Source: Solirubrum puertoriconensis
GTDB lineage: Bacteria > Bacteroidota > Bacteroidia > Cytophagales > Hymenobacteraceae
Direction: 5' to 3'
Length of the DNA stretch: 64,000 nucleotides
Assembly: GCF_001483135.1 (NCBI RefSeq)
Contig: NZ_LNAL01000006.1
Span: forward strand, 62,003 to 126,002
Shown: positions 46,835 to 61,786 of the stretch, piece after piece
Layout of the letters: every line of letters starts with the position of its first letter
Position numbering within the stretch: position 1 is the first letter of the stretch
The notes under the pieces: generated by a model
Told to the model about the DNA's origin: nothing
The model's input: only the letters and a program-made list of their open reading frames with translations
Databases searched by the model: none
Program-made: the position numbers and the translations under genes

Positions 46835-46872
46835 AACTCGAAAGGTAGCGAGCGTAAAGAGGGCGTTGAGCA

Positions 46873-46972
46873 GTAGCGTGGGTTTTGGCCCGCGTTTGCA
46901 TAAACTGTGTCGTTGAACCGGGAACGTACCAACAAAGTCGTTCGAGCAAACGCGGGCTAAAGCCCACGCTAC
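46873..46972. repeat. REP-like repeat, copy A
   Basis: 100 bases. The left end GTAGCGTGGGTTTTGGCCCG and the right end, whose complement begins GTAGCGTGGGCT, are inverted copies. Each contains its own palindrome. The centre is related to that of copy C (TTGAACCGGG, GTCGTTC). It lies between the ccoI promoter and the DUF4149-like gene. Confidence 0.85.
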
Positions 46973-47022
46973 AGGCAGCCGGAACAACAGCTCAAAAGTC
47001 CGGCTTGGTTCGCGCCGGAGTG

Positions 47023-47089
47023 CTGACTAGTATCAGCCCAAGCGCCTGATTTTCGTCATCTTTTGCCCTAGGTAAGCAGGGGAAATTTG
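47023..47089 (+). promoter_or_regulatory. Tandem Fnr-like sites and promoter of ccoI
   Basis: Site 1 TGAC-TAGT-ATCA (47024-47035); site 2 TGAT-TTTC-GTCA (47047-47058), 23 bases from the first. Then ATCTTTT and, 17 bases later, GAAATTTG (47082-47089). It matches the ccoNO promoter in sequence and every spacing. Site 2 is centred near -41.5 (class II position) and site 1 near -64.5. Confidence 0.8.
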
Positions 47090-49542
47090 TGCAGCCACCA
47101 GAGCTGACCAACCGCGTGAACATCACCGCTGCCCATACCCATACCCACACGGCTTGCACCCACTGCGGCGACGACTGCCCCGAGCAGCCCGTTGTGCTGC
47201 ACGACAAGCCGTTTTGCTGCCAGGGCTGCAAGGCCGTGTACGAACTGCTCGAGGCCAACAACCTCTGCACCTACTACTCGCTATCGGAGGAGCACCCCGG
47301 CCAGAAAGTAAAGGAAGTGGAGCTGCCCGGCCGCTTCGATTACCTCGACGAGGAATCGGTGCAGGCGCAGCTGCTCAGCTTCCACTCCGATAAGCTGGCC
47401 CGCCTCACGCTTACGCTGCCGCAAATGCATTGCGCTTCGTGCATTTACCTACTCGAGAACCTGTACAAGCTCAACCCCGGCGTGTCGGAGTCGCGGGTGA
47501 ACTTCTTGCGCAAGGAAATCAGCATCAGCTACGTGCCGTCGGAAACCTCGCTGAAGGAGGTGGTGAAACTGTTAACGGCCCTAGGTTACGAGCCCCAAAT
47601 TACGCTGGCCGAGCTGGGCGCGCAGCCCAACCACGGCTCGCGTGCCATTTACTACAAGCTGGGCTTGGCGGGCTTTTGCTTCGGCAACGTAATGCTGCTG
47701 GCTTTCCCCGATTACCTCTCCTTCACCGACGAGCTGGCCCGCGAGTTCGGCCGCTTCTTCGGTTACATCAGCTTGGTGCTGGCGTTGCCGGTGCTGCTCT
47801 ACAGCGCGCAGGATTTTTACCGCTCGGCGTGGGCGGGTATTCGGCAGCGGTACATCAACCTCGACTTCCCGATTAGCCTAGGTCTGACGGCGCTGTTCGG
47901 CGTAAGCACCTATGAAATTCTGTCGGGCACCGGTCCGGGCTACCTCGATTCATTTACGGGCCTCGTGTTCTTTATGCTGATTGGCAAGTGGGTGCAGCAG
48001 CGCACTTACGAAGCCCTGCGCTTCGACCGCGACTTCACCTCGTACTTTCCCGTTGCCGTTACGCTGCTCACCAAAGAAGGGGAGAAGTCGGTTTCGGTAA
48101 AGGACCTGCAAGTGGGCCACCGCATTGTGGTGCGTAACCAGGAGGTAATTCCGGCCGATGCCATGCTGATGCGCGGCACCGGGCAAATCGACTACTCGTT
48201 TGTGTCGGGCGAGAGCGTGCCGGTGGCCAAAGTAGCCGGCGAAGTGGTGTACGCCGGCGGCCGGCAAGTAGGCGAAGCCGTGGAGCTGGAGGTAGTGCGC
48301 GAGGTGTCGCAGGGCTACCTCACCCAACTCTGGAACAACCCCGCCTTTCAAAAAGCTGAAAAGCAGACGCTCGAAACCTACGCCAACAAAGTGGGCCGCT
48401 ACTTTGTAGGAGCCACGCTGCTCATTGCCGCCGGCGCTATTGCCTACTGGCTGCCCCGCAACCAGCACATGATGTGGCGCGCTTTTACCTCGGTGCTGGT
48501 TATTGCCTGCCCGTGCGCATTGTCGCTGGCTACGCCGTTTGCCCTAGGTAGCGCCCTCACGGCGTTTGGCCGCCGCAAGTTCTTTCTGAAGAACTCGGCC
48601 GTGGCCGAAATTCTAGGTCGGGCCACCACCATTGTGTTCGACAAGACGGGTACCCTCACCGACGTAAAGCAATCGGCGGTGGAGTACCTAGGGCCCACGC
48701 TTACGCTGCGCGAGCAGCAAGCCGTAGCGGCCGTGGTGCGCCAATCAACGCACCCGCTTAGCCAGCGCTTAGCGCAGGAACTACCCCAAAGCTCCTTTGC
48801 GGTAGTTGATTTTCTGGAAGTGCCCGGGCAAGGCCTGCGCGGTACCGTTGATGGCCTGGTGGTGAAGGTGGGTTCGGCGGCGTTCGTGGGCGCCGCGCCG
48901 GTAGCACCGCAAGCGTCGGGAACCTCCGACAACATGCAGTCGCGGGTGTACGTGAGCCTCGATAACGACCTAGGCGGCTGCTACATGTTCCGGAACGTGT
49001 ACCGCCAAAACTTGCGCGAGGTACTCGCCGACCTAGGCAAGCGCTACCGCCTGGCCGTGCTCTCGGGCGACAACGATACCGAGCAGGAGCGCTTGCGCGA
49101 GCTGTTCGGCCCGAAAGCCGAGCTGCGCTTCCGCCAGACCCCGCAAAACAAGCTCGACTACATTGCCGAGCTCAAGCGCCAGGGCGACACGGTGATTATG
49201 ATCGGCGACGGGCTGAACGACGCCGGTGCGCTGCAGCAAGCCGATGCCGGCATTGCCCTCACCGATACGCTCAGCAACTTCTCGCCCGCCTGCGACGCCA
49301 TCCTCGACGCCAGCAGCTTCGGGCAGCTCAACACCTTCCTCAAGTTCACGCAGGACTGCCTGCAAGTGGTGCTGGGCACGTTCGTTCTCTCTTTCATCTA
49401 CAACGGCATTGGCCTGGGCTTGGCGGTGCAGGGCAAGTTCACGCCCATTGTATCGGCCATTCTCATGCCCATCAGCTCGCTCAGCGTGATGCTGTTTGCC
49501 ACGCTGCTGGTGCGCCTCGCCGCCTACCAACGAAAACTCTAA
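47089..49542 (+). CDS. ccoI: Heavy-metal P-type ATPase, CcoI/FixI type
   Basis: Copper-exporting P1B ATPase required to load copper into cbb3 oxidase. 817 residues if it starts at the GTG at 47089. The N-terminus carries a cysteine-rich module (CTHCGDDCP, DKPFCCQGCKAVYELL) and an HMA domain with M114-H-C115-xx-C118. The core has the CPC ion site (C474-P-C476 in VIACPCALSLATPFALG), the phosphorylated Asp518 in FDKTGTLTD, MIGDGLNDAGAL, and a C-terminal membrane pair. No ATG is available near the start. The first base of GTG 47089 is the last base of the -7 box, so GTG 47116 (VNITAAHTHTH) may be the true start. ccoS follows after 14 bases. Confidence 0.93.
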   Translation: MQPPELTNRVNITAAHTHTHTACTHCGDDCPEQPVVLHDKPFCCQGCKAVYELLEANNLCTYYSLSEEHPGQKVKEVELPGRFDYLDEESVQAQLLSFHSDKLARLTLTLPQMHCASCIYLLENLYKLNPGVSESRVNFLRKEISISYVPSETSLKEVVKLLTALGYEPQITLAELGAQPNHGSRAIYYKLGLAGFCFGNVMLLAFPDYLSFTDELAREFGRFFGYISLVLALPVLLYSAQDFYRSAWAGIRQRYINLDFPISLGLTALFGVSTYEILSGTGPGYLDSFTGLVFFMLIGKWVQQRTYEALRFDRDFTSYFPVAVTLLTKEGEKSVSVKDLQVGHRIVVRNQEVIPADAMLMRGTGQIDYSFVSGESVPVAKVAGEVVYAGGRQVGEAVELEVVREVSQGYLTQLWNNPAFQKAEKQTLETYANKVGRYFVGATLLIAAGAIAYWLPRNQHMMWRAFTSVLVIACPCALSLATPFALGSALTAFGRRKFFLKNSAVAEILGRATTIVFDKTGTLTDVKQSAVEYLGPTLTLREQQAVAAVVRQSTHPLSQRLAQELPQSSFAVVDFLEVPGQGLRGTVDGLVVKVGSAAFVGAAPVAPQASGTSDNMQSRVYVSLDNDLGGCYMFRNVYRQNLREVLADLGKRYRLAVLSGDNDTEQERLRELFGPKAELRFRQTPQNKLDYIAELKRQGDTVIMIGDGLNDAGALQQADAGIALTDTLSNFSPACDAILDASSFGQLNTFLKFTQDCLQVVLGTFVLSFIYNGIGLGLAVQGKFTPIVSAILMPISSLSVMLFATLLVRLAAYQRKL

Positions 49543-49556
49543 TCCTTCCCTGAGTC

Positions 49557-49727
49557 ATGGAAATCATCTTCGGCCTTATCACCTTTTCGCTTACCGTTGC
49601 CGTGCTGTTCCTGCTGGCCTTCGTGTGGGCCGTGCGCAGCCACCAGTACGACGATACCTACACACCCGCCGTGCGCATGCTGTTTGAAGACAACGAAACG
49701 CAAGCCCCAACGGAGCAGCCGCAATAA
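49557..49727 (+). CDS. ccoS: cbb3 oxidase maturation protein CcoS
   Basis: 56 residues, a standard CcoS length. Read directly from the sequence: MEIIFGLITFSLTVAVLFLL, AFVWAVRSHQYDDTYTPAVR, MLFEDNETQAPTEQPQ. One N-terminal membrane helix and the family's W-A-x-R-S-x-Q-Y-D-D motif are present. CcoS is needed for haem and copper insertion into CcoN. It lies 14 bases after ccoI, in the usual ccoI-ccoS order. REP-like copy B begins 38 bases after its stop. Confidence 0.92.
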   Translation: MEIIFGLITFSLTVAVLFLLAFVWAVRSHQYDDTYTPAVRMLFEDNETQAPTEQPQ

Positions 49728-49765
49728 TTTGAAGTTAGCACAACTGTAGCGCAGTGTAATGCGGT

Positions 49766-49865
49766 GTAGCGCGGGCTTCAGCCCGCGTTTGCGTGAACGA
49801 TTGGTGCCGCGCAGATCTGGCCACACGATTACGTTCGGGCAAAAGCGGGCTGAAGTCCGCGCTAC
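49766..49865. repeat. REP-like repeat, copy B
   Basis: 100 bases, GTAGCGCGGGCTTCAGCCCG at the left and GCGGGCTGAAGTCCGCGCTAC-type end at the right (complement starts GTAGCGCGGACT). The last five bases GCTAC include the stop codon of the RAYT gene on the reverse strand. Confidence 0.9.
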
Positions 49866-50467
49866 AGGTCGCGCCAGTAGGAGTAAGGCCACTTTTGCCA
49901 ATCGGCTACCAGCCCGGCTTTCACGGGGTTTTCCAGCACATAGGCAATTATGCGCTGCATCTCCTCGCCGTTGCGCACCACGTGGTCGTAGCTTTCGGGC
50001 TGCCAAAAAGCGCCTTCGCGGCCTAGCAGCAGGTTTGCTTGTCGGGCGGTTCGGCCTTTTAGTTCTCGCAGGGTTTGTATCAGAGGCGGTGCTTGTTCGG
50101 GTACATGCACCAGCAAATGCACGTGGTTCGGCATCAGGCAGTAGCATATTAGATCGTAGCTCCTGCTATCGAAGTGATGTATAGCGGTGCGTACCGTCTC
50201 GGCTATATCGGGCCGTTGCAACCACAACGGGCCGGTGGGTGCCTGATCGAGCATTTGATCAAAATGCTTGAAGTAGCGCTTGCGTCGGACGGATGATTCC
50301 TCCGCATCAGAGCGCTTTTCTACCTGCTCCACGCGTTGCAACTGCGCGCGCAAGCTCTCCACCACCGTGCGGGGTAACGTGCCTGCTAACCGAAACGTGA
50401 TGAATATGGATTCGCCGGGTGGCAGGCGGTGCGGGAGGTTGCGTTCGTAATGCGCGGTGTTATTCAC
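49862..50467 (-). CDS. REP-associated tyrosine transposase (RAYT, Y1/HUH type)
   Basis: 201 residues from a GTG start. Single-strand DNA nuclease of the Y1 class, related to IS200/IS605 TnpA; RAYTs nick and move REP elements. The HUH motif is L111-M-P-N-H115-V-H117-LLV, and the catalytic tyrosine is Tyr160 in WQPESYDHVVRNGEEM, followed by the RAYT hallmark IIAYVLENPVKAGLV and W-PYSYW. It is bracketed on both sides by repeat copies: copy B overlaps its stop codon and copy C starts 6 bases before its start. With no second IS gene and no target duplication visible, this is a domesticated REP/RAYT arrangement, not a classical insertion sequence. Confidence 0.93.
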   Translation of the reverse strand: MNNTAHYERNLPHRLPPGESIFITFRLAGTLPRTVVESLRAQLQRVEQVEKRSDAEESSVRRKRYFKHFDQMLDQAPTGPLWLQRPDIAETVRTAIHHFDSRSYDLICYCLMPNHVHLLVHVPEQAPPLIQTLRELKGRTARQANLLLGREGAFWQPESYDHVVRNGEEMQRIIAYVLENPVKAGLVADWQKWPYSYWRDL

Positions 50468-50473
50468 GAAGAT

Positions 50474-50575
50474 GTAGCGCGGGCTTTAGCCCGCTTTTGC
50501 TAGCACAATTACCGTTGAACGGCAAAACGTCCCCACAAGGTCGTTCACGCAAACGCGGGCTAAAGCCCGCGCTAC
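50474..50575. repeat. REP-like repeat, copy C
   Basis: 102 bases. The left end GTAGCGCGGGCTTTAGCCCG and right end CGGGCTAAAGCCCGCGCTAC are near-perfect inverted copies. The centre resembles copy A. It sits between the RAYT start and the glycosidase stop. Confidence 0.9.
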
Positions 50576-50603
50576 TGCCGTTCTGTTTGGTTACGCGTTT
50601 GTT

Positions 50604-53354
50604 TTACCGCACTCGCGTCAGGCGCAGCTGGTCGAGCATGGCTTGGTTTACCTCGCCGTTCATGTTCTCGTTGGCCCGCTCGAAGGTGAGCGTGAGTGTA
50701 TGCGTGCCTTTGCTGAGCTGCGCCATCACAGGATTAGAGTAACCCCAATCCGACCACTCACCAACCCCGCGCTGCGGCAGCACCACGGTACCTAGCTGGC
50801 GCACGCCGTTGCGCAGCGTGCGAATTGCGCACTTGTTGCTGGTGTTGATGGGGCCATTGCCGTTGGCGTAGCGGAAGTCGATGGCGTACACGCCATCGGC
50901 GGGTACCTGCACGCGCACGGCTACGCGGCGGTTCTGCGTTTTGCTGATTTCGATGAACCCTTTGCCTGCGAAGCCTTTGTAGGGCAACTTGGCTGCCGGT
51001 GCCGAGGCCTCGAGCTCGTAGCTGCGGCGAAACTTGTCACCCTCAATGGCCAGCGGCTCACTGGCGAAACTCTCGTGGCCGGCCGCATCCACGGCTAGTA
51101 CCTGGTACTCGGTATAGGCAGTAGGGGCGGGTACGGCAAAATCCGTATCGGTAGTGCGGGCGGCGAACTGTCCGTTGCGTAGTACTTGGTAAGCTTTGGC
51201 ACCCGCCACGGCTGGCCAGCTAAGGCGGCCGCTGCGGTAGCTTACGGCGGGCGTCATGGGCGAGATGTGGTGCGGCACTTTGTTTTGGGCGGCCGCGCTA
51301 GGTGCCTCGTTGGCCAACTCGATGCGGATGTTGTGCGTGCCCGTGAGCGTAGCCAGCAGGGTGGCCTCGGGCAGAGGCTGGCCATCCATGGTAATGCTGC
51401 GGATGGTGCGGCCGTAGCCAGTCATCTCCACATTCAGCACCGCTTGGCGGTACTTGAAGTTGGTAAGCCGGCGGGTGCCTTGCAGCACTTGCGGCACAAA
51501 CGGCCGGAACACCAGTTTATCGGCCTGAAAATCCATGCCGAACAGGCCTTTGTACACCAACCCTAGGTTGCCCGAGAGGCTCCAAAGCATAACGCTGCTG
51601 TTTACCTGCGTGCCGGCGAAGTCGCCGTTCGAGGCCACGAAGTTCTCCTTGTTGGTAACGAACAGGGCCGCGGGGCGCGTTACGGCCGCTATGCTCTCCA
51701 TGAGCGCGGTTTCGTTGCCTGCTTTGGCGGCGGCCAGGCCCCAGTAGCTCTGCACAAAGGGCCACACGGCGTTGTTGTGGTAGGGCGGAATGCCGGCAAT
51801 TTGCGGGTAGATGCACGGAATGCCGTACGCCATTACGGGCGTGCGCTGTACCACAGTGGTCTGGCGCTCGGTCGGCGCTACATCAAATAGCACGCTTAGG
51901 GCAGCACCTAGGGCTTCAGCCCGCGGCGACACCGTCTTGTAGGTGCGGCCGTACAGGTATTGACCGTAATAGCCCTTTTCTGCCTGCCACAGGTGCTCGT
52001 TTATGCCCCCGCGAATGCGCTCGGCCAATTTGCTGAAGCGCATGGGGTCGCCATCTTCTTTAAGCAGCCGGGCCATGTGCGAGAGCACCGTGTTGGCTTG
52101 CGCGTGCACGGCATTGGTGCCTAGGTTCTCCGATTCATAAATGTCGGCGGGCTGCATCCACTTGGGATAGGTTTGCTCGCGCCAGTCCAGGAACGACGAT
52201 TCGCCGCGCACCAAGCCGGTTTGTGCGTCGTAGGCGTTCGGCACGTCGTCCTCGATGGACTTTTTGATAATGTGGTACACCTTGCGCAGCCAGGCTTCGT
52301 CGCCGGTAGTCAGGTAAATTTCCCAGGCGGCCACGGCCCAAATCATGCGGTCGGTAGAGCAGGGGTAGGCGCCGCCCGTACCGGTGTCCTGAATGATGCG
52401 GCCATCGGGCGTAACCTTGCGCATGAGACTGGTTTTGGCCACTTCAGGCTGCAGCAAAGCCTGCGAGAGAATGATGCTGTAGCTAATGTCGCGCGTCCAG
52501 ACACCAGCCCACTCCTGGCCCGTGCGGAAGGTGCCGTCGGGCTCCACGGCGCGTTTGGCTTCTTCGATGCTGAGGTTGTAAACGGCATCGAGCAGCGGGT
52601 AATCCGATTGGTACTGCGGAAACCCCGACACGTCGAGGCTCTGCTTCCACTGCTTGGCGGTGGTTTTGGCATCGGAGTGGGCGTTCAGCACCACCGTGGT
52701 TTCGTAAATGCCGTCGCCGTCAGGGTCTTTCAGCTCCAGTTGCGGCTTGTTGATGAGGTTGTCGAAGTCCCAGCTGAGCGGCGTGGTGTTGCCGGCTACG
52801 TGCACGTGCTTTAGGTCGTCTTTGTAAAGCTTCTGGCCGTTGTAAAGCTGGTAGTAGCCTTGCTTCTGAAAGGCCGCCAGCACGGGGCGCATGTCTACCC
52901 GAATCTTCAGCGGGGTGTTTGGGGCTAGGTAGGTGTTGGCCGGCACGGGCGTTTTGTCCACGTACTGCTGCCCAAACACAATCACTGGCGTTTCGAGCGC
53001 GGCGCCGCCCGCCTTAGGTAGGGCCACAAACACGTGGTCTTGGCCGGGCTGCATCTCGTTGTCTTTGCCGTTGAGGCTGAACTTGAAGCTCACCTGCGGG
53101 CTCTGGAATTCGTTGGCCGGGCTCTGGTAGTTCGATGCCAGTTCGGTGCGCGACACCGCCCTCGCCACGTGCTTGCCCTGCACCACCGAGTCGGGGTAGA
53201 GCGCGTACGTCTCCGATTGCCAAATGGGCTGGGCCGGTGCAGGCACCAACGCATTAGATGAAGCAGAGGAAGAGGTAGTTACTTTCGGCATGTGGCACGA
53301 ACCCAGCAGACCTAGGGCCAGCAAAAAGTGCGGAGGACAGAAACGGTGGCGCAT
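50604..53354 (-). CDS. Six-hairpin glycosidase-like lipoprotein with C-terminal carbohydrate-binding module
   Basis: 916 residues from MRHRFCPPHFLLALGLLGSC, lipid-anchor Cys20. An N-terminal beta-domain (~30-230) contains DPDGDGIYETTVVLNAHSDA. The alpha/alpha six-barrel core (~245-600) shows EWAGVWTRDISYSIILSQAL, STDRMIWAVAAWEIYLTTGD, GESSFLDWREQTYPKWM and PPYHNNAVWPFVQSYWGLAA, like trehalase/GH63-type or alpha-L-rhamnosidase-type enzymes. Next come a small beta-domain and an FN3-like segment (~730-790; SYRSGRLSWPAVAGAKAYQV). The C-terminal ~130 residues (YELEASAPAAKLPYKGFAGK, QVPADGVYAIDFRYANGNGP, TLTLTFERANENMNGEVNQA) look like a CBM6/CBM35-type module. Likely degrades an alpha-linked glycan at the cell surface; the substrate is not clear. 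Confidence 0.75.
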   Translation of the reverse strand: MRHRFCPPHFLLALGLLGSCHMPKVTTSSSASSNALVPAPAQPIWQSETYALYPDSVVQGKHVARAVSRTELASNYQSPANEFQSPQVSFKFSLNGKDNEMQPGQDHVFVALPKAGGAALETPVIVFGQQYVDKTPVPANTYLAPNTPLKIRVDMRPVLAAFQKQGYYQLYNGQKLYKDDLKHVHVAGNTTPLSWDFDNLINKPQLELKDPDGDGIYETTVVLNAHSDAKTTAKQWKQSLDVSGFPQYQSDYPLLDAVYNLSIEEAKRAVEPDGTFRTGQEWAGVWTRDISYSIILSQALLQPEVAKTSLMRKVTPDGRIIQDTGTGGAYPCSTDRMIWAVAAWEIYLTTGDEAWLRKVYHIIKKSIEDDVPNAYDAQTGLVRGESSFLDWREQTYPKWMQPADIYESENLGTNAVHAQANTVLSHMARLLKEDGDPMRFSKLAERIRGGINEHLWQAEKGYYGQYLYGRTYKTVSPRAEALGAALSVLFDVAPTERQTTVVQRTPVMAYGIPCIYPQIAGIPPYHNNAVWPFVQSYWGLAAAKAGNETALMESIAAVTRPAALFVTNKENFVASNGDFAGTQVNSSVMLWSLSGNLGLVYKGLFGMDFQADKLVFRPFVPQVLQGTRRLTNFKYRQAVLNVEMTGYGRTIRSITMDGQPLPEATLLATLTGTHNIRIELANEAPSAAAQNKVPHHISPMTPAVSYRSGRLSWPAVAGAKAYQVLRNGQFAARTTDTDFAVPAPTAYTEYQVLAVDAAGHESFASEPLAIEGDKFRRSYELEASAPAAKLPYKGFAGKGFIEISKTQNRRVAVRVQVPADGVYAIDFRYANGNGPINTSNKCAIRTLRNGVRQLGTVVLPQRGVGEWSDWGYSNPVMAQLSKGTHTLTLTFERANENMNGEVNQAMLDQLRLTRVR

Positions 53355-53514
53355 AAAGGCAAAGTAACGTGCTTTTAAGGCGCGCAGCTGCGGTATACGG
53401 CGGCCGGCCAACGGGGCCAAGCATAGCCTGGCGAGCAGGTAGCTGGGGCACCCAAGCCGGTAGCGTTGCACAACCGCTATTTTTGGCTGCTCCTACGCCC
53501 TTCAGCCCGCCCGT

Positions 53515-55227
53515 ATGCACCGCGTCATCCTAGGTATTAATTGCAGTGGTTTTCACTCCTCGGCCTGCCTGCTCGATGCCCAAGGGCGGGTGCAGTTTGC
53601 CATTGCCGAGGAGCGGCTCTCGCGCCAGAAGCAGGATAAGTCGTTCCCGCGGCGCGCCATTCAGTACTGCTGCGAGGCGGCGGGCCTGCGGGTGCAGGAG
53701 GTTACCGATGTGTTTGTGGGCTGGAACCCGGCCGCCTACCTAGGGCAATCGGGCCAAACGCTGGCCGATGCTTTCCAGAACCGCGGCAAACTGGCGCAGC
53801 TCACGGCGCAGGAGCTGGCCGCCATGCAAGGCGATGCGCACCACCTAGGGCAAACGCTGCTGCGCGCGGGCGGCCACCAAACGCGCATTCACTATGTCAA
53901 TCACCACCACGCGCACTTGGCCAACGCGCTGGTGCCCTCGGGCTTTGCCGAAGCCGACTTCTTCGTTGCCGATGGCTTTGGCGAAACCACCACCGGACTC
54001 ATTGGCACCGCCGACGCGCACGGCCTGCACGAGTTGGCCGCCAACCGCACGCCGCACTCCCTCGGTCTATTTTATGCCGCCTTCACCGAATTCCTGGGCT
54101 TCCGGCCCAACAGCGACGAGTGGAAGATTATGGCCCTGGCTGCCCGCGGCAACCCGAATACCTACTATGAGCAGCTCCGCCCGCTTATCACGGTAGAGGG
54201 GCTGCACTTCGAACTCGATCTGCGCTATTTCGAGTTCTTCCTGTTTTTCACGCCCCGGTATTTTTCGCCCAAACTCGAGGCGTTGCTGGGCCCGGCCGTG
54301 GCACCCGGTGCCGAGCTTACCCAACGCGACTACGACATTGTAGCCGCCGTGCAGCGCATTACCGAGGAGGCGGTGTTTGAGCTGCTGAACAACCTTCAGG
54401 CCCAAACCGGCCGGCGGCGCCTGGTGCTCGGCGGCGGCGTGCTCATGAACTCGGTGCTCAACGGCAAGCTGCGCCAGCACACCCGATACGCCGAGGTGTT
54501 CATCGGCGGCACCCCCGACGATACCGGCATTAGCGTGGGCAGCGCCCTCTACGGCCGGCACTTTGTGCTGTGCGAACCCAGGGCCGCGCACCCCGAGGCC
54601 AGCCGCCACAACTTTTTCGGGCGCGCGTACGCCGAGGCCGAACTGGAGGCCGAGCTGCAGCGCCGCAAGCTGCGCTACGAGCGGCCCGCCAGCATCACCG
54701 CCGCCACGGCCGAGCTGCTGCACCAAGGGCAGGTGCTGGGCTGGTTTCAGGGCGCCTCGGAATTTGGGCAGCGGGCCCTAGGCCACCGGAGTATCTTGGC
54801 CGACCCTACCCGCCCCGACATGAAAGCCAGGGTAAACGCCAGCATTAAGTACCGCGAAGCCTTCCGGCCGTTTGCGCCCGCCGTACCTGCCGAGCACCAG
54901 CACGCGTACTTCGAGCTACCCGAAGGCGAAACGGCTTATTTCATGGAAAAGGTGTTCCGGCTGAAGCCGGACGCCCAGCGCCGCCTGCCCGCCGTAACCC
55001 ACGACGACGGCACCGGCCGCCTGCAAACCGTGCTGGCCGCCGACAATGGCCTCTTTCACGAGTTGTTGCTAAAATTCGGCCAACTCAGCGAAGTGCCCGT
55101 GCTACTCAATACCTCCTTCAACCTCAACGGCATGCCCTTGGTCGAGTCGCCGGCCGACGCTTTGGATTGCTACCTGCAATCGGGGCTCGATGCGTTGGCG
55201 CTGGGGCCCTTCTTGCTGCGGAAGTAA
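53515..55227 (+). CDS. Carbamoyltransferase, NodU/CmcH family
   Basis: 570 residues. Transfers carbamoyl from carbamoyl phosphate via carbamoyl-adenylate to a hydroxyl on a sugar or antibiotic. N-terminal kinase-like (TobZ/YrdC-TsaD fold) landmarks: RVILGINCSGFHSSACLLDA, AEERLSRQKQDKSFPRRAI, the metal-binding H130-H131-H132-A-H134-LANA, and DGFGETTTGLIG. The central region has FLGFRPNSDEWKIMALAARG and LGGGVLMNSVLNGKL. The C-terminal domain has GWFQGASEFGQRALGHRSIL, RPFAPAVPAEH and NTSFNLNGMPLVESPADALD. No glycosyltransferase or biosynthetic cluster accompanies it, so the acceptor is unknown. Divergent from the glycosidase. Confidence 0.92.
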   Translation: MHRVILGINCSGFHSSACLLDAQGRVQFAIAEERLSRQKQDKSFPRRAIQYCCEAAGLRVQEVTDVFVGWNPAAYLGQSGQTLADAFQNRGKLAQLTAQELAAMQGDAHHLGQTLLRAGGHQTRIHYVNHHHAHLANALVPSGFAEADFFVADGFGETTTGLIGTADAHGLHELAANRTPHSLGLFYAAFTEFLGFRPNSDEWKIMALAARGNPNTYYEQLRPLITVEGLHFELDLRYFEFFLFFTPRYFSPKLEALLGPAVAPGAELTQRDYDIVAAVQRITEEAVFELLNNLQAQTGRRRLVLGGGVLMNSVLNGKLRQHTRYAEVFIGGTPDDTGISVGSALYGRHFVLCEPRAAHPEASRHNFFGRAYAEAELEAELQRRKLRYERPASITAATAELLHQGQVLGWFQGASEFGQRALGHRSILADPTRPDMKARVNASIKYREAFRPFAPAVPAEHQHAYFELPEGETAYFMEKVFRLKPDAQRRLPAVTHDDGTGRLQTVLAADNGLFHELLLKFGQLSEVPVLLNTSFNLNGMPLVESPADALDCYLQSGLDALALGPFLLRK

Positions 55228-55316
55228 GCAGCACCCAAGGCAAGCGCCTAGATGCTGCGTGCCATCCTTCGGCCGGATGCGCGCGTTTAAGGCAGACCAT
55301 CCAATCTGCCTACACC

Positions 55317-55814
55317 ATGAGGATCAATCGTACATCTGTATTCTGGCAAACCCTGGGCCTAGGCGCCTTGTCGGGGTTGCGCAGCATGTCGTCGTTGGCC
55401 ATGCTTAGCCACGTATTGCACAAGCAACCGTCGGGCCGCTTGGCGGCGTCGCCGCTGCGCTGGTTCCAGTCGGGCACCGCTGCCAACGCCTTAAAGGTTA
55501 TGGCCGGCGGCGAGCTGCTGGGCGACAAGCTGCCCAACATGCCCGACCGCACCGCGCCGCCTATTTTGGGCGGCCGTATTCTGTCGGGGGCGCTGGTGGG
55601 CGGCGTTCTAGCCAAAGCCAACCGCAATAGCCTGTGGCAAGGCGCACTGCTGGGTGCCGCAGCGGCCGTAGCCAGTAGCTACGCCGCGCTGTACCTGCGC
55701 AAAGCTGCTTCGCGCAACACGCCCGTTAAGGAGCCCTGGACGGGCGTGGTGGAAGACGCCATTACGCTGGCCAGCGGCACAGCCTTGCTCAAAGGCAACA
55801 CGCCCGGCCATTAA
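55317..55814 (+). CDS. DUF4126 membrane protein
   Basis: 165 residues from MRINRTSVFWQTLGLGALSG. Family landmarks: LGALSGLRSMSSLAMLSHVL, the GGELLGDKLPNMPDRTAPPI segment, GGRILSGALVGGVLAKANRN and LLGAAAAVASSYAALYLRKA. Three or four membrane segments are expected. Members are small integral membrane proteins of unknown function found across bacteria. The gene follows the carbamoyltransferase by 89 bases and ends at a strong hairpin before the ccoNO promoter. Confidence 0.88.
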   Translation: MRINRTSVFWQTLGLGALSGLRSMSSLAMLSHVLHKQPSGRLAASPLRWFQSGTAANALKVMAGGELLGDKLPNMPDRTAPPILGGRILSGALVGGVLAKANRNSLWQGALLGAAAAVASSYAALYLRKAASRNTPVKEPWTGVVEDAITLASGTALLKGNTPGH

Positions 55815-55837
55815 ACACCTCGCAAACTCACCTACTG

Positions 55838-55885
55838 CGCAAGGGCGCTGCCTGGCTGCTTCGGTACCAAGGCAGCGCCCTTGCG
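55838..55885. terminator. Hairpin separating the DUF4126 gene from ccoNO
   Basis: A 16-bp perfect stem (CGCAAGGGCGCTGCCT / AGGCAGCGCCCTTGCG) with a 16-base loop. The tail GTTTAG is weak in T. Confidence 0.75.
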
Positions 55886-55934
55886 GTTTAGATTAGACAG
55901 TAGGAGGGAGCAGCGTCACTTCAGCGGCTTGCGG

Positions 55935-56002
55935 CCTGATATCTATCAGGCGCCGCGTCTGACTTTCGTCATCTTTTCGCGGTCCGGGTTTGGGGAGTTT
56001 TG
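55935..56002 (+). promoter_or_regulatory. Tandem Fnr-like sites and promoter of ccoNO
   Basis: Site 1 CCTGATATCTATCAGG (55935-55950, perfect palindrome; core TGAT-ATCT-ATCA); site 2 TGAC-TTTC-GTCA (55960-55971). Then ATCTTTT and, 17 bases later, GAGTTTTG (55995-56002). It aligns with the ccoI promoter without gaps from site 1 to the -7 box. Site 2 falls near -41.5. Confidence 0.85.
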
Positions 56003-56030
56003 TAACACTCAAAACAACCCGTTTCGCGCT

Positions 56031-58232
56031 ATGGCTGTGCTGGTCCAAGCGAAATCGCCCCAGGAGCTGGATAAGTCCTCGAAGGCCGTTCTCGCATCGT
56101 TTTACGACAACAAAATCGTCCGCAATTTCGGTATTGCTACCGTCTTCTGGGGCATTGCTGGCATGCTGATCGGGGTAATCGCCGCGTTTCAGCTGGCCCG
56201 CCCCGAGCTCAACATGGGTACGCCTTACACCACGTTTGGCCGTATCCGCCCCTTGCACACCAATGCCGTGATTTTCGCCTTTGTGGGCAACGGCATTTTC
56301 ATGGGGGTATACTACTCGCTGCAGCGTTTGTGCAAAACGCGCATGTTCTCCGATCTGCTGAGCAAAATTCACTTCTGGGGTTGGCAGCTCATCATCGTAT
56401 CGGCCGTGGCTACGCTGCCGCTGGGCTATACCAGCTCCAAGGAGTACGCCGAGCTGGAGTGGCCCATCGACATTGCCATTACTCTGATCTGGGTAGTGTT
56501 CGGCTGGAACATGTTCGGCACCATTGCCCGCCGCAAGGAGAAGCACCTGTATGTAGGCATCTGGTTTTACATCGCCACGTTCCTGACGGTAGCCGTGCTG
56601 CACATCGTCAACTCGATGGCCATTCCGGTGTCGTTCCTGAAGAGCTACTCGCTCTATGCCGGGGTGCAGGATGCGCTGGTGCAGTGGTGGTACGGCCACA
56701 ACGCAGTAGCCTTCTTCCTGACCACGCCTTACCTGGGCCTGATGTACTACTTCCTGCCGAAAGCGGCAGAGCGCCCGGTGTACTCGTACCGCCTCTCGAT
56801 CATTCACTTCTGGTCGCTGATCTTCATCTACATCTGGGCGGGGCCGCACCACTTGCTGTACACCGCCCTGCCCGACTGGGCCCAAAGCCTAGGTGTGGTG
56901 TTCTCGGTTATGCTGATTGCACCCTCGTGGGGCGGCATGATCAACGGCCTGCTCACCTTGCGCGGCGCCTGGGATAAAGTGCGCGAAGAGCCCATCCTGA
57001 AGTTTATGGTGGTGGCTATCACAGCCTACGGCATGGCCACTTTCGAGGGGCCGATGCTCTCGCTGAAGAACGTAAACGCCATTGCCCACTTCACCGACTG
57101 GATTGTAGCCCACGTACACGTTGGCGCCCTGGGCTGGAACGGTTTCCTCACCTTCGCCGTGCTCTACTGGTTGTGGCCCCGCCTGTACCAAACCCCGATG
57201 CACTCGCGCAAGTTGGTGAACACCCACTTCTGGCTCGGCACCCTAGGTATCCTGTTCTACGCCATTCCCATGTACTGGGCCGGCTTCACGCAGGGCCTGA
57301 TGTGGAAGCAGTTCAACGACGAGGGCATGTTGCAGTACGCCAACTTCCTCGAAACCGTGATGCAGATTGTACCCATGTACTACCTGCGCGGCATCGGCGG
57401 GGTGCTCTACCTGAGCGGCGTGTTCCTGATGGTGTACAACCTCTATAAAACCGCCAAAGCTGGCTCGCTGCTCGCCGATGAGAAGTTCCACGCGCCGGCT
57501 GTAATCGACAACGAGCACAGCCACGAAGGCGGCCACTGGCACCGCTGGATTGAGCGCCGCCCCGTGCAGCTCAGCATCTGGGCTACGGTAGCCATCCTGA
57601 TCGGCGGCGCGGTAGAAATGGTGCCCACTTTCCTCATCAAGAAAAACGTGCCCACCATTGCCTCCGTCAAGCCTTACACCTCGCTCGAGCTCGAAGGCCG
57701 CGACATCTACATCAAAGAAGGCTGCGTGAACTGCCACACCCAAATGGTGCGCCCCTTCCGCTCCGAAACCGAGCGCTACGGCGAGTACTCCAAAGCCGGC
57801 GAGTTTGTGTACGACCGGCCGTTCCTGTGGGGCTCGAAGCGCACCGGCCCCGATTTGCATCGCCTCGGGGGCAAGTACCCGCACTCGTGGCACTACAACC
57901 ACATGATGGACCCCACCAGCATGTCGCCGGGCTCGATTATGCCGCCTTACCCCTGGCTGTTCGAAAACCAGACCGACTACTCGAGCACTGCCGCCAAAAT
58001 TGCCGCCCTGCGCAAGCTCGGCACGCCTTACCCCGCCGGCTACGAGCAAGTGGCCGTGCAGGACGCCGAAAAGCAAGCCGCCGGCATTGTGGCCGACTTA
58101 GCCAAGGAAGACATCAAAGTGAAATCGGACAAGGAAATCGTGGCGCTGATTGCCTACCTGCAACGCCTAGGTACCGACATCAAAGTAAAAGAAGACCAAG
58201 CTGCTGCCTCGGCTGTAGCCGCCGCTGAATAA
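56031..58232 (+). CDS. ccoN: cbb3 cytochrome c oxidase, fused CcoN-CcoO
   Basis: Catalytic subunit I joined to the monohaem subunit CcoO: high-affinity terminal oxidase for low oxygen. 733 residues from MAVLVQAKSPQELDKSSKAV. CcoN (~30-490) has twelve membrane helices with conserved histidines in RIRPLHTNAVIFAF, WWYGHNAVAFFLTT, WAGPHHLLYTALPDW and HFTDWIVAHVHVGALGWNG. A soluble linker (HSHEGGHWHRW) follows. CcoO (~510-690) has one membrane helix and a C565-V-N-C568-H569 haem site with the axial Met in PGSIMPPYPW. The N-O fusion is common in Bacteroidota. It is preceded by the Fnr-type promoter and followed by ccoQ and ccoP. The upstream in-frame start at 55881 would cross the promoter. Confidence 0.96.
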   Translation: MAVLVQAKSPQELDKSSKAVLASFYDNKIVRNFGIATVFWGIAGMLIGVIAAFQLARPELNMGTPYTTFGRIRPLHTNAVIFAFVGNGIFMGVYYSLQRLCKTRMFSDLLSKIHFWGWQLIIVSAVATLPLGYTSSKEYAELEWPIDIAITLIWVVFGWNMFGTIARRKEKHLYVGIWFYIATFLTVAVLHIVNSMAIPVSFLKSYSLYAGVQDALVQWWYGHNAVAFFLTTPYLGLMYYFLPKAAERPVYSYRLSIIHFWSLIFIYIWAGPHHLLYTALPDWAQSLGVVFSVMLIAPSWGGMINGLLTLRGAWDKVREEPILKFMVVAITAYGMATFEGPMLSLKNVNAIAHFTDWIVAHVHVGALGWNGFLTFAVLYWLWPRLYQTPMHSRKLVNTHFWLGTLGILFYAIPMYWAGFTQGLMWKQFNDEGMLQYANFLETVMQIVPMYYLRGIGGVLYLSGVFLMVYNLYKTAKAGSLLADEKFHAPAVIDNEHSHEGGHWHRWIERRPVQLSIWATVAILIGGAVEMVPTFLIKKNVPTIASVKPYTSLELEGRDIYIKEGCVNCHTQMVRPFRSETERYGEYSKAGEFVYDRPFLWGSKRTGPDLHRLGGKYPHSWHYNHMMDPTSMSPGSIMPPYPWLFENQTDYSSTAAKIAALRKLGTPYPAGYEQVAVQDAEKQAAGIVADLAKEDIKVKSDKEIVALIAYLQRLGTDIKVKEDQAAASAVAAAE

Positions 58233-58323
58233 CTCAACTGGCCCCGGGCGGGGTGCTCCTTGCAACACGTGCTGGAAACACTTGCCGGCACCCCGCCCCT
58301 AAAGCCTCTCTAGGTCTAACGTT

Positions 58324-58524
58324 ATGTACAAGAACGTCCTTCAGGCAATCAGCGGAATCGAGATTTACCCGCTTATTTCCTTCGTCATTTTCTTTCTCTT
58401 TTTCCTGGCCCTGTTGGTGTATGTATGCGTGGTTAGCCGCGAGCATATCCAGGCCATGAAACAAATTCCGCTGCAGGCCGACGATGCCGCGCAAGCCCAG
58501 CCGGAAGGAGGTGTGCTATGCTAA
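58324..58524 (+). CDS. ccoQ: CcoQ-like small membrane subunit
   Basis: 66 residues: MYKNVLQAISGIEIYPLISF, VIFFLFFLALLVYVCVVSRE, HIQAMKQIPLQADD. One membrane helix followed by a charged cytoplasmic tail, the CcoQ layout, at the expected place between ccoNO and ccoP. CcoQ helps assemble or stabilise the oxidase. Its last codons carry a perfect AAGGAGGTG for ccoP and its stop codon overlaps the ccoP start (ATG at 58518, TAA at 58522-58524). Confidence 0.85.
   Translation: MYKNVLQAISGIEIYPLISFVIFFLFFLALLVYVCVVSREHIQAMKQIPLQADDAAQAQPEGGVLC
58505..58513 (+). promoter_or_regulatory. Strong Shine-Dalgarno sequence for ccoP
   Basis: AAGGAGGTG inside the end of ccoQ, with the AGGAGG core 6 bases before ATG 58518. 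Most other starts in the window have no such site. It favours 58518 over ATG 58524. Confidence 0.8.
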
Positions 58525-59423
58525 TGCGCCGTTGGTACCTAGGCGCGTTGCTCGTGCTGAGCAGCCTGCTCACCGGCTCGGCCGCCGTAGCGCAAGAAGC
58601 CGCCGCTGCTACCGAAGCTGCCAAGCCCGCCGCCGAAAGCGGCACCAACCTCACGGCCATGCTCTGGCTGATGGGGGGCCTCACCGCTCTGATCATCTTT
58701 GTGCTGCTGATGCTGTTTGCCCTGCTGTGGCAAATGCGGCCGTTGCTGCGGAAGGTGTACGAAATAGAGACCATTCGCGAATCGTGGTACGGCCGTGCCC
58801 TAGGTCTGTTTTTGGGCGACACGGTGGGCCTCACGGGCAAGTACAAGGAAGACGTGATGGCCGGCCATGATTACGACGGCATCACGGAGTACGACAACGA
58901 CCTGCCGCCGTGGTGGAAGTACGGCTTCTACGTTACCATCGTGTTCGGCATTGCTTACTTCGTGCACTACCACGTATCGGAAACCGGCCAGCTGAGCGAC
59001 GCTGAGTACCAACACGAAATGGCCGAAGCCGCCATGCTGGCCGCCAAGCTCGGTGCCAACGACGACCCCAACAAGCCCACCGATTACAAAGCCCTAACGG
59101 CCGCCGCCGATATTGAAGCCGGTAAGGCTGTATTCGCCCAAAACTGCGCCGCTTGCCACGGCCAGGCCGGCGAAGGCAAAGTAGGCCCCAACCTCACCGA
59201 CGAGTACTGGCTGCACGGCGGCGAGGTGAACAAGGTGTACAAAACCGTGAAGTACGGCGTAACCACCAAAGGCATGGTAGCCTGGAAAGGCAAGCTCTCA
59301 AGCAAGCAAATGCTGCAGGTGTCGTCGTACATCCTGAGCATTCAGGGCACCAACCCGGCCAACGCCAAGGCCCCGCAAGGCGAGAAGGAAGCTGCCAGCG
59401 GCAAGCCCGTAGCCAAGCTGTAG
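58518..59423 (+). CDS. ccoP: cbb3 oxidase cytochrome c subunit CcoP, single haem
   Basis: 301 residues. Signal peptide (to AVAQE), a membrane helix at ~45-70 (AMLWLMGGLTALIIFVLLML), a second at ~133-150 (WWKYGFYVTIVFGIAYFVHY), and DYDGITEYDNDLPPWW, the CcoP N-terminal signature. One haem c site C210-A-A-C213-H214 with axial Met in KGMVAWKGKLS. Classical CcoP has two haems; here only the second-type site is present. It delivers electrons to CcoN. It overlaps ccoQ by 7 bases. Its stop codon TAG is part of the first GTAG of REP-like copy D. Confidence 0.93.
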   Translation: MLMRRWYLGALLVLSSLLTGSAAVAQEAAAATEAAKPAAESGTNLTAMLWLMGGLTALIIFVLLMLFALLWQMRPLLRKVYEIETIRESWYGRALGLFLGDTVGLTGKYKEDVMAGHDYDGITEYDNDLPPWWKYGFYVTIVFGIAYFVHYHVSETGQLSDAEYQHEMAEAAMLAAKLGANDDPNKPTDYKALTAAADIEAGKAVFAQNCAACHGQAGEGKVGPNLTDEYWLHGGEVNKVYKTVKYGVTTKGMVAWKGKLSSKQMLQVSSYILSIQGTNPANAKAPQGEKEAASGKPVAKL

Positions 59424-59520
59424 CGTGAACTTTAGCCCGCGTTTGCCAGAACAATTGGCTGTGCGCGGAACTGCCCTGACGAACACCGTTTCAGAAAACG
59501 CGGGCTGAAGCCCGCGCAAC
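59420..59520. repeat. REP-like repeat, copy D
   Basis: 101 bases. The left end GTAGCGTGAACTTTAGCCCG is degenerate; the right end CGCGGGCTGAAGCCCGCG is intact. GTAG (59420-59423) includes the ccoP stop. The right terminal GCTAC has decayed to GCAAC. Confidence 0.75.
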
Positions 59521-59595
59521 ACACTGCCCGCAGCGGGTACCCTTCTCCCCGCTGTTCATCCGCAAGCCGCTCACAGCACAGCCCTAAGCTCGGAT

Positions 59596-59630
59596 GGGCC
59601 GCCAGCCCTAGGTTGGCGGCGGGCCTTTTT
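59596..59630 (+). terminator. Terminator of ccoNOQP
   Basis: Stem GGCCGCCA / TGGCGGC continuing GGGCC, with CCTAGG in the loop and TTTTTAG after it. The 321-base gap between ccoP and ccoG holds only this and repeat copy D. Confidence 0.8.
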
Positions 59631-59744
59631 AGGGAATACGGCCAGGGCAAGGTGCCCGGCCACGCCTGGCCTGCCGCAGACCGACGGAATGTGTAGCCGA
59701 TAACGCCCTAGGTGCTTTCAACGCCGCGGGGCTCCTGTACCAAG

Positions 59745-61169
59745 ATGAATCCCGTCGCCACCAAACCCGCCGCTGCCGAGTCGTTCCGCGACTCTATCTC
59801 GACGATCGACGCCGAAGGCAAGCGCGTGTGGCTCTTCCCGAAGAAACCCAGCGGCAAGCTGTACAACGCCCGCAAGTGGGTAAGCTACGGCCTGCTTACG
59901 CTGCTTTTTGCCGGCCCCTGGCTGCGCCTCAACGAATTGCCCGTGCTGATGCTCAACGTGGTTGAGCGCAAGTTCATTATCATGGGCCAAATCTTCTGGC
60001 CGCAGGATTTCTTTATCCTGCTGCTGGGCTTCATGGCCTTTATCCTGTTCATCATCCTGTTTACGGTGGTGTACGGGCGCATTTTCTGCGGCTGGGTGTG
60101 CCCCCAGACCATCTTCATGGAGATGGTGTTTCGGCGGGTAGAGTACTTTTTCGAGGGCGACGCGTCCCAGCAAAAAGCCCTCGACAAAGCCGACTGGACG
60201 TGGAACAAGATCTGGCGCCGCACCGGCAAGCACAGCGTATTTGTGCTTATCTCGTTGCTGATTGCCAATACCTTCCTGGCATACATCATCGGTTCGGAGG
60301 CCTTGGTGAAAATCATTGCCGATTCGCCGCTAAACCACCTAGGCGGTCTTAGCTCGATGGTGGTGTTCACGGGTGTGTTCTACGCGGTATTTGCCCGGTT
60401 TCGGGAGCAGGTGTGCACCATTGCTTGCCCCTACGGCCGCTTGCAGGGCGTAATGCTCGATAAAAATACCATTACCGTGGCCTACGATTACGGCCGCGGC
60501 GAGCCGCGCGAGAAGCTGCGCAAAAACCAGGAGCGCAAAGCCGGCGACTGCATCGACTGCAAACAGTGCGTGCAGGTGTGCCCGACGGGCATCGACATCC
60601 GCAACGGCGCCCAGCAAATGGAGTGCATCAACTGCACGGCGTGCATTGATGTGTGCAACTCCATAATGGACCTCATCAACAAGCCGCACGGCCTCATTCG
60701 CTACGATTCGGAAGCGCACATCGAAGCGGGTACCAAGTTCAAAGTTACGGGCCGCACCAAGGCGTACACCGCCGTGCTGGTGGTGCTGGTGGTGCTGGTG
60801 GGGGTAATGGTTGGCCTGCTGATAACGCGTTCCAACGTTGATGCTACCGTGCTGCGCACGCCGGGGCAGCTGTACCAAAAAACGGAGCGCGGCACCGTCA
60901 CCAACCTCTACAACATCTCGGTTATCAACAAAACCAACCGCGCCATGCCTATTGAGTTGCGCGTGCTCGAGCCCGCCGATGGCTCGGTGAAGCTGGTGGG
61001 CCAGAACGGCCTGAAGTTGCCCGCCCAAGGCATGGTGGAAGGCGTGTTCTTCGCCGAGCTACCCACTGCCGCGCTAACGCATACCAGCAATAAAATCCGC
61101 ATTGGTGTGTACAGTGGCGGCCAATTGATAACCGAAGAGAAAACTAAGTTTTTGGCGCCAGCGCAGTAG
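59745..61169 (+). CDS. ccoG: cbb3 oxidase accessory iron-sulphur protein CcoG
   Basis: 474 residues from MNPVATKPAAAESFRDSIST. Membrane-bound ferredoxin-like protein; in other bacteria CcoG reduces Cu(II) for oxidase assembly. Several membrane helices (~45-65, ~85-110, ~185-205, ~330-355). Cysteine motifs: FCGWVCPQ, CTIACPYGRLQ, and two [4Fe-4S] sites CIDCKQCVQVCPTG and CINCTACIDVC. The C-terminal ~110 residues are an Ig-like domain (NLYNISVINKTNRAMPIELR). It lacks its own Fnr-type site and lies after a terminator, so it may have a separate promoter. REP copy E follows. Confidence 0.94.
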   Translation: MNPVATKPAAAESFRDSISTIDAEGKRVWLFPKKPSGKLYNARKWVSYGLLTLLFAGPWLRLNELPVLMLNVVERKFIIMGQIFWPQDFFILLLGFMAFILFIILFTVVYGRIFCGWVCPQTIFMEMVFRRVEYFFEGDASQQKALDKADWTWNKIWRRTGKHSVFVLISLLIANTFLAYIIGSEALVKIIADSPLNHLGGLSSMVVFTGVFYAVFARFREQVCTIACPYGRLQGVMLDKNTITVAYDYGRGEPREKLRKNQERKAGDCIDCKQCVQVCPTGIDIRNGAQQMECINCTACIDVCNSIMDLINKPHGLIRYDSEAHIEAGTKFKVTGRTKAYTAVLVVLVVLVGVMVGLLITRSNVDATVLRTPGQLYQKTERGTVTNLYNISVINKTNRAMPIELRVLEPADGSVKLVGQNGLKLPAQGMVEGVFFAELPTAALTHTSNKIRIGVYSGGQLITEEKTKFLAPAQ

Positions 61170-61175
61170 AACGAT

Positions 61176-61277
61176 GTAGCGCGGACTTCAGTCCGCGTTC
61201 GTCAAATAGTAAGCCTCCTCGTAAGCCATCGTGCTGCGACAATCGTCCGGACGAACGCGGACTGAAGTCCGCGCTGC
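61176..61277. repeat. REP-like repeat, copy E
   Basis: 102 bases. Arms GTAGCGCGGACTTCAGTCCG and CGGACTGAAGTCCGCGCTGC. Compared with the other copies GGGC/GCCC has become GGAC/GTCC on both sides of each palindrome, so pairing is preserved by paired changes. Confidence 0.85.
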
Positions 61278-61300
61278 ATCGGCCAAACATCACCTTTCTT

Positions 61301-61786
61301 ATGACCACCCTAACCGTAAATAAACACGCCCAACAACGTAGCCTCTGGCCCTACGCCATCATTGCGGCCTTCGTTTTGTTTGCCTTGTTCATCGGCTACA
61401 TGGTAAAGCAAGCCATGAGCACCCAGGTCGACCTCGTCAGCAAAGATTACTACCAGCAGGAGCTGCAGCACCAGCAGCGCATGGATGCCGTAGCGCGCAC
61501 CAACGCCCTGCCCACCGCCGTGGATGTAGTCTACGACGCCGTGGCCGATGAGCTGACCCTGCAACTGCCCGCCAACTTAGCGGGCCAGCAGGCTACGGGC
61601 AAGGTGCAGTTCTTCCGGCCCTCCGACCAAACGCTTGATTTTGCGGTGCCGCTGCAAACCAGCGCCAGCGGTGCGCAACGCCTGAGCACGGCCAAAATGA
61701 AGCCCGGTTATTGGCGCGTTCGGCTAGACGTGGAGGCTGCTGGCCAGGCTTATTTTGTGGAGAAAAATATCACCGTCGAGGACTGA
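61301..61786 (+). CDS. ccoH: FixH/CcoH-family protein
   Basis: 161 residues. One membrane helix (~15-38; SLWPYAIIAAFVLFALFIGY) and the family motif VDLVSKDYYQQELQHQQRMD right after it. The outer domain is an Ig-like sandwich (ELTLQLPANLAGQQATGKVQ, FFRPSDQTLDFAVPLQT, GYWRVRLDVEAAGQAYFVEK). CcoH associates with the cbb3 oxidase and is needed for its assembly. It lies 131 bases after ccoG; repeat copy E fills most of that gap. Confidence 0.9.
   Translation: MTTLTVNKHAQQRSLWPYAIIAAFVLFALFIGYMVKQAMSTQVDLVSKDYYQQELQHQQRMDAVARTNALPTAVDVVYDAVADELTLQLPANLAGQQATGKVQFFRPSDQTLDFAVPLQTSASGAQRLSTAKMKPGYWRVRLDVEAAGQAYFVEKNITVED

Follow-up and report, generated by a model that had tools for sequence, protein, structure and literature searches.

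The repeat units and the RAYT of the cbb3 oxidase region

The window, by which we mean the whole 64,000-nucleotide stretch of Solirubrum puertoriconensis DNA that was analysed, contains a family of repeats surrounded by a cbb3 oxidase cluster, with genes for a CcoN-CcoO fusion, CcoP, CcoG, FixH and a heavy-metal P-type ATPase. Judging from position, the ATPase gene is presumably that of CcoI, and the open reading frame beside the RAYT, for which a family search gave no match, is taken to be CcoS-like. The RAYT lies between this frame and a glycosidase gene. The features to which we refer are the following, where type I denotes the REP family of the window units:

46873..46972: REPIN copy A (type I), flanked by a hypothetical gene and by that of the heavy-metal P-type ATPase
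49766..49865: REPIN copy B (type I), on the 3' side of the RAYT, whose stop codon TAG falls within the minus-strand GTAG of this copy
49862..50467, minus strand: RAYT (TnpA-REP), 201 amino acids from a GTG start, between copies B and C
50474..50575: REPIN copy C (type I), at 6 bp from the start codon of the RAYT, on its upstream side
59420..59520: REPIN copy D (type I), with the CcoP stop codon inside its GTAG
61176..61277: REPIN copy E (type I), between the CcoG and CcoH genes

An earlier, sequence-only reading of this DNA had described five GTAG-headed inverted units of about 100 bp, all of which were found at the expected positions. The units (n=5) are 100-102 bp long and consist of two 22-nt hairpins with 5' GTAG feet, arranged outward with a variable spacer in between. 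The same reading considered all copies intergenic, which is correct for A, C and E (3/5); copies B and D (2/5) overlap the stop codons of the RAYT and of CcoP, respectively. When folded as single-stranded DNA, each of the five units surpassed all of its 200 shuffles (z from -3.8 to -9.6). The occurrence of the 12-mer GTAGCGCGGGCT in the window is hardly higher than expected by chance (26 sites with up to 2 mismatches vs. a shuffle mean of 16.3, with 3 of 100 shuffles reaching 26). The palindrome CCTAGG was counted 91 times in the 64 kb window, as compared to 20.6 expected from base composition and 73.1 from sub-words.

The sequence-only reading proposed a count of copies and orientations in the whole genome. 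In the genome from which the window comes (G000; 4.80 Mb in 8 contigs), the 22-nt REP, searched with up to 2 mismatches, gave 78 half-sites, and its reversed control none. Grouped at less than 250 bp, these form 43 places: 29 outward pairs ('+-', GTAG outside), no inward pair ('-+'), 9 singles, 3 double-foot elements of 26 bp, one '--' and one '+--'. The family thus has two of the traits by which REPs and REPINs are recognised, namely a 5' GTAG (or GTGG) foot ahead of a GC-rich hairpin and dispersed, multi-copy inverted doublets with GTAG outside (29/43 places). The flanks of 77 type I half-sites have T at position -1 in 79% of cases, together with a weak GTAGCGCGNT-like trend. In 49 type I REPINs from three genomes, spacer identity has a median of 0.63 vs. 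a shuffled mean of 0.58, so what the units have in common is the arms and not the spacers. Against this background, copy D has a non-allelic sister copy (L006, C6:540325) with a spacer identity of 0.90, the maximum in 3000 shuffled comparisons being 0.71. Some arms of both this and a second REP type (type II, GTAGCGCGGACTTTGTAGTCCGCG) contain an additional, similar loop about 20 nt long (GGCTACGCC-NNCCTNCGGTT; L077, L107, L116, L121, L127 and others), which makes the hairpin longer and possibly branched.

The RAYT, placed between copies B and C also by the sequence-only reading, scored 89.2 bits against the NCBI model NF047646 (cut-off 80), and is the single gene of G000 above this cut-off. 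Among PDB entries it matches E. coli TnpA-REP best (4ER8, E=1.8e-9). In the alignment, His59 and His61 correspond to His115 and His117, which form the HUH motif His115-Val116-His117, Tyr115 corresponds to Tyr176 in the motif YVLENP, 59 residues past the HUH, and Asn119 to Asn180. Tyr115 is the nucleophile of the E. coli protein. The earlier description of a RAYT with intact HUH and Tyr160 therefore stands as regards the two histidines; Tyr160 aligns with Trp99, and the position of the nucleophile is that of Tyr176. Residues Trp94, Gln95, His101 and Arg104, which contact GTAG, are conserved as Trp155, Gln156, His162 and Arg165, and Glu100 is replaced by Asp161; all five residues of the window RAYT are invariant in 15/15 aligned RAYT rows. 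The roles of the TnpA-REP residues that contact GTAG are those given in PMC6006769. The gene combines an HUH and a Y motif, a score above the RAYT cut-off, cognate REPs on its flanks and single-copy status; together with the cognate REPINs on either side, this single-copy RAYT makes up a REPtron (49766-50575).

RAYTs and REPs in the genus and the family

Eight genomes of the genus (G000-G007) were compared. With up to 1 mismatch, type I half-sites number 67, 0, 51, 7, 56, 7, 4 and 54, in this order. RAYTs at 75% identity to the window RAYT are found in G004 and G007, whereas G002, with its 51 half-sites, has a 35% paralogue as sole RAYT match, so that the number of REPs does not follow the presence of a RAYT one to one. 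RAYT matches reach E 1e-30 or better in 61 of the 204 genomes of the family, and exact type I REPs are present in 12, i.e. 7 of the 8 genus members plus 5 others that have one or two apiece.

Among the 32 best RAYT matches for which loci were given, an outward REP pair lies beside the RAYT in 27, and at least one GTRGCGY hairpin in 29, with differing cores (this latter count has no control). In a RAYT tree of 40 rows, 35 of which could be labelled by their REPs, the 17 unpooled cores require 16 changes, which is the minimum, whereas 500 label shuffles gave 21-25. The labels had first been pooled by hand after the tree was known, giving 14 cores and 13 changes. At L185, where two cores adjoin, the minimum is reached with either choice. 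Since REP cores track the RAYT tree, REP type is tied to RAYT lineage. Among the best 80 of 550 RAYT loci from a named collection, 25 had an outward pair of REPs no farther than 450 bp from the RAYT, as compared to 0/80 with shuffled flanks; the REP-flanked loci include Chloroflexi and Cloacimonadota records.

Other RAYT-like genes were observed in the genus. A diverged paralogue that shares 33-36% identity with the window RAYT is present in 7 of the 8 genomes (L030-L033, L036, L038, L039); the copy of G000 is the following:

G000:C8:310753-311331: diverged RAYT-like paralogue (L036), below the NF047646 cut-off (C8:311026)

This copy gave no match in Pfam and NCBIfam at the cut-offs used, and its Y motif lacks NP. 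A scan of the flanks of the paralogue for GTRGCGY hairpins found none in 7/7, and it has the look of a RAYT that was kept without REPs. Further RAYTs with their own REPs were seen in G004 (two) and G007 (one) (L034, L035, L037), and the pair that has a GTGG foot (GTGGCGCGGAGTGGTACTCCGCG) shows 98% identity across the two species.

As the sequence-only reading had suggested looking for, species differ at individual REPIN sites. The site of copy A is occupied in G004 by a REPIN with an expanded-loop arm, and the corresponding intergenic region of G005 holds a REP; no intact REPIN was found at sites D and E in G004 or G007. Downstream of CcoNO, a REPIN is present in G002 and none in G000 and G003. 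This G002 REPIN has type I arms, and its spacer start (GATAGTAAT) resembles that of type II REPINs. At L004, short REPIN remnants are found in G004 and G007, which points to loss by internal deletion rather than gain, whereas the non-allelic pair formed by copy D and L006 supports spread. Both spread and loss of REPINs are thus indicated by these comparisons, and the between-species site differences together with the non-allelic sister copy would fit a mobile family. An empty-site search starting from L006 found a sole counterpart, in G005, at 76% identity.

The gene for CcoP ends with CTG-TAG, without an intact REPIN, in G001, G004 and G007, and with TGA or TAA in G002, G003, G005 and G006. 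By the first group, the GTAG of copy D coincides with an older host GTAG, predating the REPIN. We do not claim GTAG as a general insertion target, copy D and CcoP being one case only, and abundant empty palindromic targets were dropped because unoccupied GTAGCGC-N0-10-GCGCTAC palindromes amount to at most 2 places per genome.

The counts of exact half-sites among those with up to 1 mismatch are, for type I, 51/67 in G000, where RAYT-I is present, and 39/56 in G004 and 45/54 in G007, where it was not found; for type II they are 24/37 in G000, where RAYT-II was not found, 30/35 in G004 and 40/49 in G007. The types differ, with no clear extra decay in type I, and a faster decay of orphan REPs is not claimed.

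These data also bear on a possible role of the units as fixed regulatory or terminator elements within the cbb3 cluster. Their hairpins are strong, and a terminator scan accepts the left arm of copy C, yet this is the only one of 10 arms to pass, which leads us to reject termination as the main function. A known RNA family is likewise rejected, there being no Rfam match at 46500-61600. Tens of copies throughout the genome and sites D and E without an intact counterpart in G004 and G007 make a fixed element so improbable that we reject it. The combination of no further copies and identical same-site copies in distant relatives, which the sequence-only reading associated with fixed elements, is not what was observed.

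We are therefore confident that the units are REPINs and that 49766-50575 is a REPtron with a genome-wide REPIN population. By analogy with the TnpA-REPs that have been studied, the RAYT would bind the GTAG foot and the hairpin on single-stranded DNA and would cut at a CT or CA dinucleotide picked by the GTAG guide, through a 5'-phosphotyrosine at Tyr176. That the GTAG guide selects the CT/CA at which cleavage takes place is described in PMC8266576, and the CTAC foot of the window REPs holds a CT. Rejoining of the strands by the RAYT would then lead to REPINs being copied, moved or lost at a low rate.

Shared positions, changing occupants and the RAYT locus

REP places were compared across species by their flanks, and types at shared sites were assigned from sequence patterns, allowing at most 3 mismatches. 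The sets consisted of 53 places in G000 (window copies excluded), 40 in G004 (9 listed places left out) and 20 in G007. Half of the G004 places and all of the G007 places were chosen from the type II list, and therefore the tallies of types given here are not those of a random sample. Both flanks of 26 of the 40 G004 places matched G000 places, one of the 26 (L166) being a neighbour of L101 and matched to the same locus; in this selected set the type agreed in 11/26, vs. 8.6 expected if independent (P 0.21). Between G007 and G000, 11/20 places matched, 6 of the 11 with the same type (5.2 expected), and between G007 and G004 12/20 matched, 5 of the 12 with the same type (5.7 expected). Flush junctions (0.7 or more) were found in 23/45 left and 11/44 right comparisons of same sites, four of these matches lying inside genes and not at feet, as compared to 6/287 in a control that covers the left side only. 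The shares, about half on the left and a quarter on the right, count against re-occupation at the feet. At L019/L108/L133, three species have one left junction and three different occupants.

Of the 31 same-site pairs, seven comparisons within one type involve a REPIN that is intact in both genomes: three are orthologous (0.85-0.98) and four are at the level of non-allelic copies (0.57-0.62, where the non-allelic medians are 0.61 and 0.65). An eighth same-type pair, L148/L167, is orthologous by the appearance of the alignment. From these comparisons, many REP positions persist across species while their occupants change.

The chief rival to re-occupation or exchange at the feet is differential loss from ancestral composites in which type I was nested in type II, with no exchange in place. 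Composites of the form II[I]II, i.e. type I REPINs nested inside type II, occur at several loci each in G000, G004 and G007 (the reverse, type II inside type I, is seen at L092), and one of them is orthologous between G000 and G004 (L091/L109, inner spacer 0.98). To these may be added the internal deletion at L004 in G004 and, at L134/L101, the right flank of a G004 type II element, which by eye resembles a degraded type I arm. On the other hand, four of the seven intact same-type spacers are no more alike than non-allelic ones, although three are orthologous, and at L019/L108/L133 a common left junction bounds three occupants. We regard differential loss as quite possible, if somewhat short of probable.

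Re-occupation is a less certain part of the proposed explanation, according to which a site with a GTAG...CTAC pair would tend to be occupied again, so that the position stays while the REPIN type, and at the shared locus the RAYT cassette, may be replaced in place. In a broader form, which we offer as a speculation more apt to fail than to hold, GTAG...CTAC feet would be lasting landing pads at which RAYTs swap hairpin cassettes in place, even a REPIN-bounded RAYT and in either orientation; positions would be inherited and their contents would turn over, in a manner resembling cassette exchange.

Between the CcoS-like frame and the glycosidase gene, a RAYT is present in G000, G004 and G007, and none was found at this site in G001, G002, G003, G005 and G006. 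The flanking REPINs are of type I in G000 and of type II in G004 (one side) and G007 (both sides), and the RAYT of G000 has the opposite orientation to those of G004 and G007. Nine neighbour genes have 85-96% nucleotide identity in the three pairs of these genomes (CcoI 91.4-91.6%), the glycosidase and carbamoyltransferase genes being nearest between G000 and G004 (93-94% vs. 89-90%). The RAYT of G000 is 73.2 and 72.8% identical to those of G004 and G007, respectively, which share 87.0%. In the tree, the window RAYT groups (98/93) with that of Hymenobacter gummosus, which has type I REPs and lies at an unrelated locus.

A switch of REP type by in-place mutation, without replacement of the cassette, is what has been called an orthoswitch and described for syntenic RAYTs of Pseudomonas and Stenotrophomonas (PMC3686654). 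A clade of the window, G004 and G007 RAYTs without that of H. gummosus, as such a switch implies, is not rejected by the AU test (p 0.086). Nevertheless, the opposite orientation, a RAYT far more diverged than its neighbours and the grouping with a type I RAYT found elsewhere incline us against an in-place switch, which we see as less likely than not. The same three observations favour the view that the RAYT cassette at the shared locus was replaced rather than changed in place. The description of RAYTs as single-copy and vertically inherited (PMC8049555) speaks against an easy exchange of cassettes.

Comparison with known REP/RAYT systems

The proposal of a REP/RAYT system in Bacteroidota is borne out by the NF047646 score, the TnpA-REP match, the dispersed inverted pairs and the site differences between species. 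Its novelty is smaller than the sequence-only reading suggested, since Bacteroidetes RAYTs are already published: PMC6006769 includes Bacteroidetes among the hosts of its subclass 2.4, for which it describes GT[AG]G REPs. PMC3733652 assigns GTAG repeats to Proteobacteria, Cyanobacteria, Chloroflexi and the PVC group; Bacteroidetes are among the groups for which it lists CGTC repeats. The same source describes REP dimers located within palindromes, as well as an interleaving of repeats with other families; the insertion of one repeat into another is therefore not without precedent. In the open-access literature searched, no report on REP/RAYT in Hymenobacter was found, nor one in which REPINs of one type are nested in those of another or in which the occupants of shared sites turn over.

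The window RAYT belongs to the same Y1 transposase superfamily as the transposases of IS200/IS605 transposons (29.7 bits with Pfam Y1_Tnp). Unlike these, it scores below the cut-off of the IS200 equivalog NF033573 (19.8 bits, cut-off 55), is the one gene above the RAYT cut-off and is bounded by REPINs. By the motif descriptions in PMC6006769 (Quentin et al., 2018), its motifs are nearest to subclass 2.7: NHVH and WQ fit, whereas YVLENP differs from YI[LR][NQ]NP at two positions. Asp in place of Glu100 is shared with subclasses 2.5 and 2.7, and long GT[AG]G REPs are common to the window family and to subclasses of that work. Double-foot REPs, present here, are stated there for subclass 2.4, from which the window RAYT differs in the distance from HUH to Tyr (59 vs. 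a median of 88, most subclasses having medians of 58-67) and in YVLENP vs. YIxNNP.

With the REPtrons of Pseudomonas, Stenotrophomonas and E. coli, as described in PMC3116915, PMC8266576 and PMC3686654, the system shares GTAG-footed hairpins in outward pairs, cognate REPs flanking the RAYT, a REP class tied to the RAYT, syntenic RAYTs with different REP classes and abundant REPs without their RAYT. It differs from them in its Bacteroidota host, in the RAYT motifs discussed above, in half-site number (tens here vs. over a thousand in SBW25), in having two REP types that are mutually nested and that occupy common sites in different species, and in the opposite orientation of the RAYT at a shared locus. 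New here are a REP core that follows the RAYT tree in 35 RAYTs with the fewest changes possible and, in two species of the genus, a diverged, inverted RAYT with another REP type at the same locus. The 35 labelled RAYTs with their 17 REP cores are a natural series for locating the residues that determine RAYT specificity. As regards the orthoswitch, on whose mechanism its authors can only speculate (PMC3686654), three species with both REP types, RAYT-I or RAYT-II at one locus and re-used positions make the question testable by comparison of strains.
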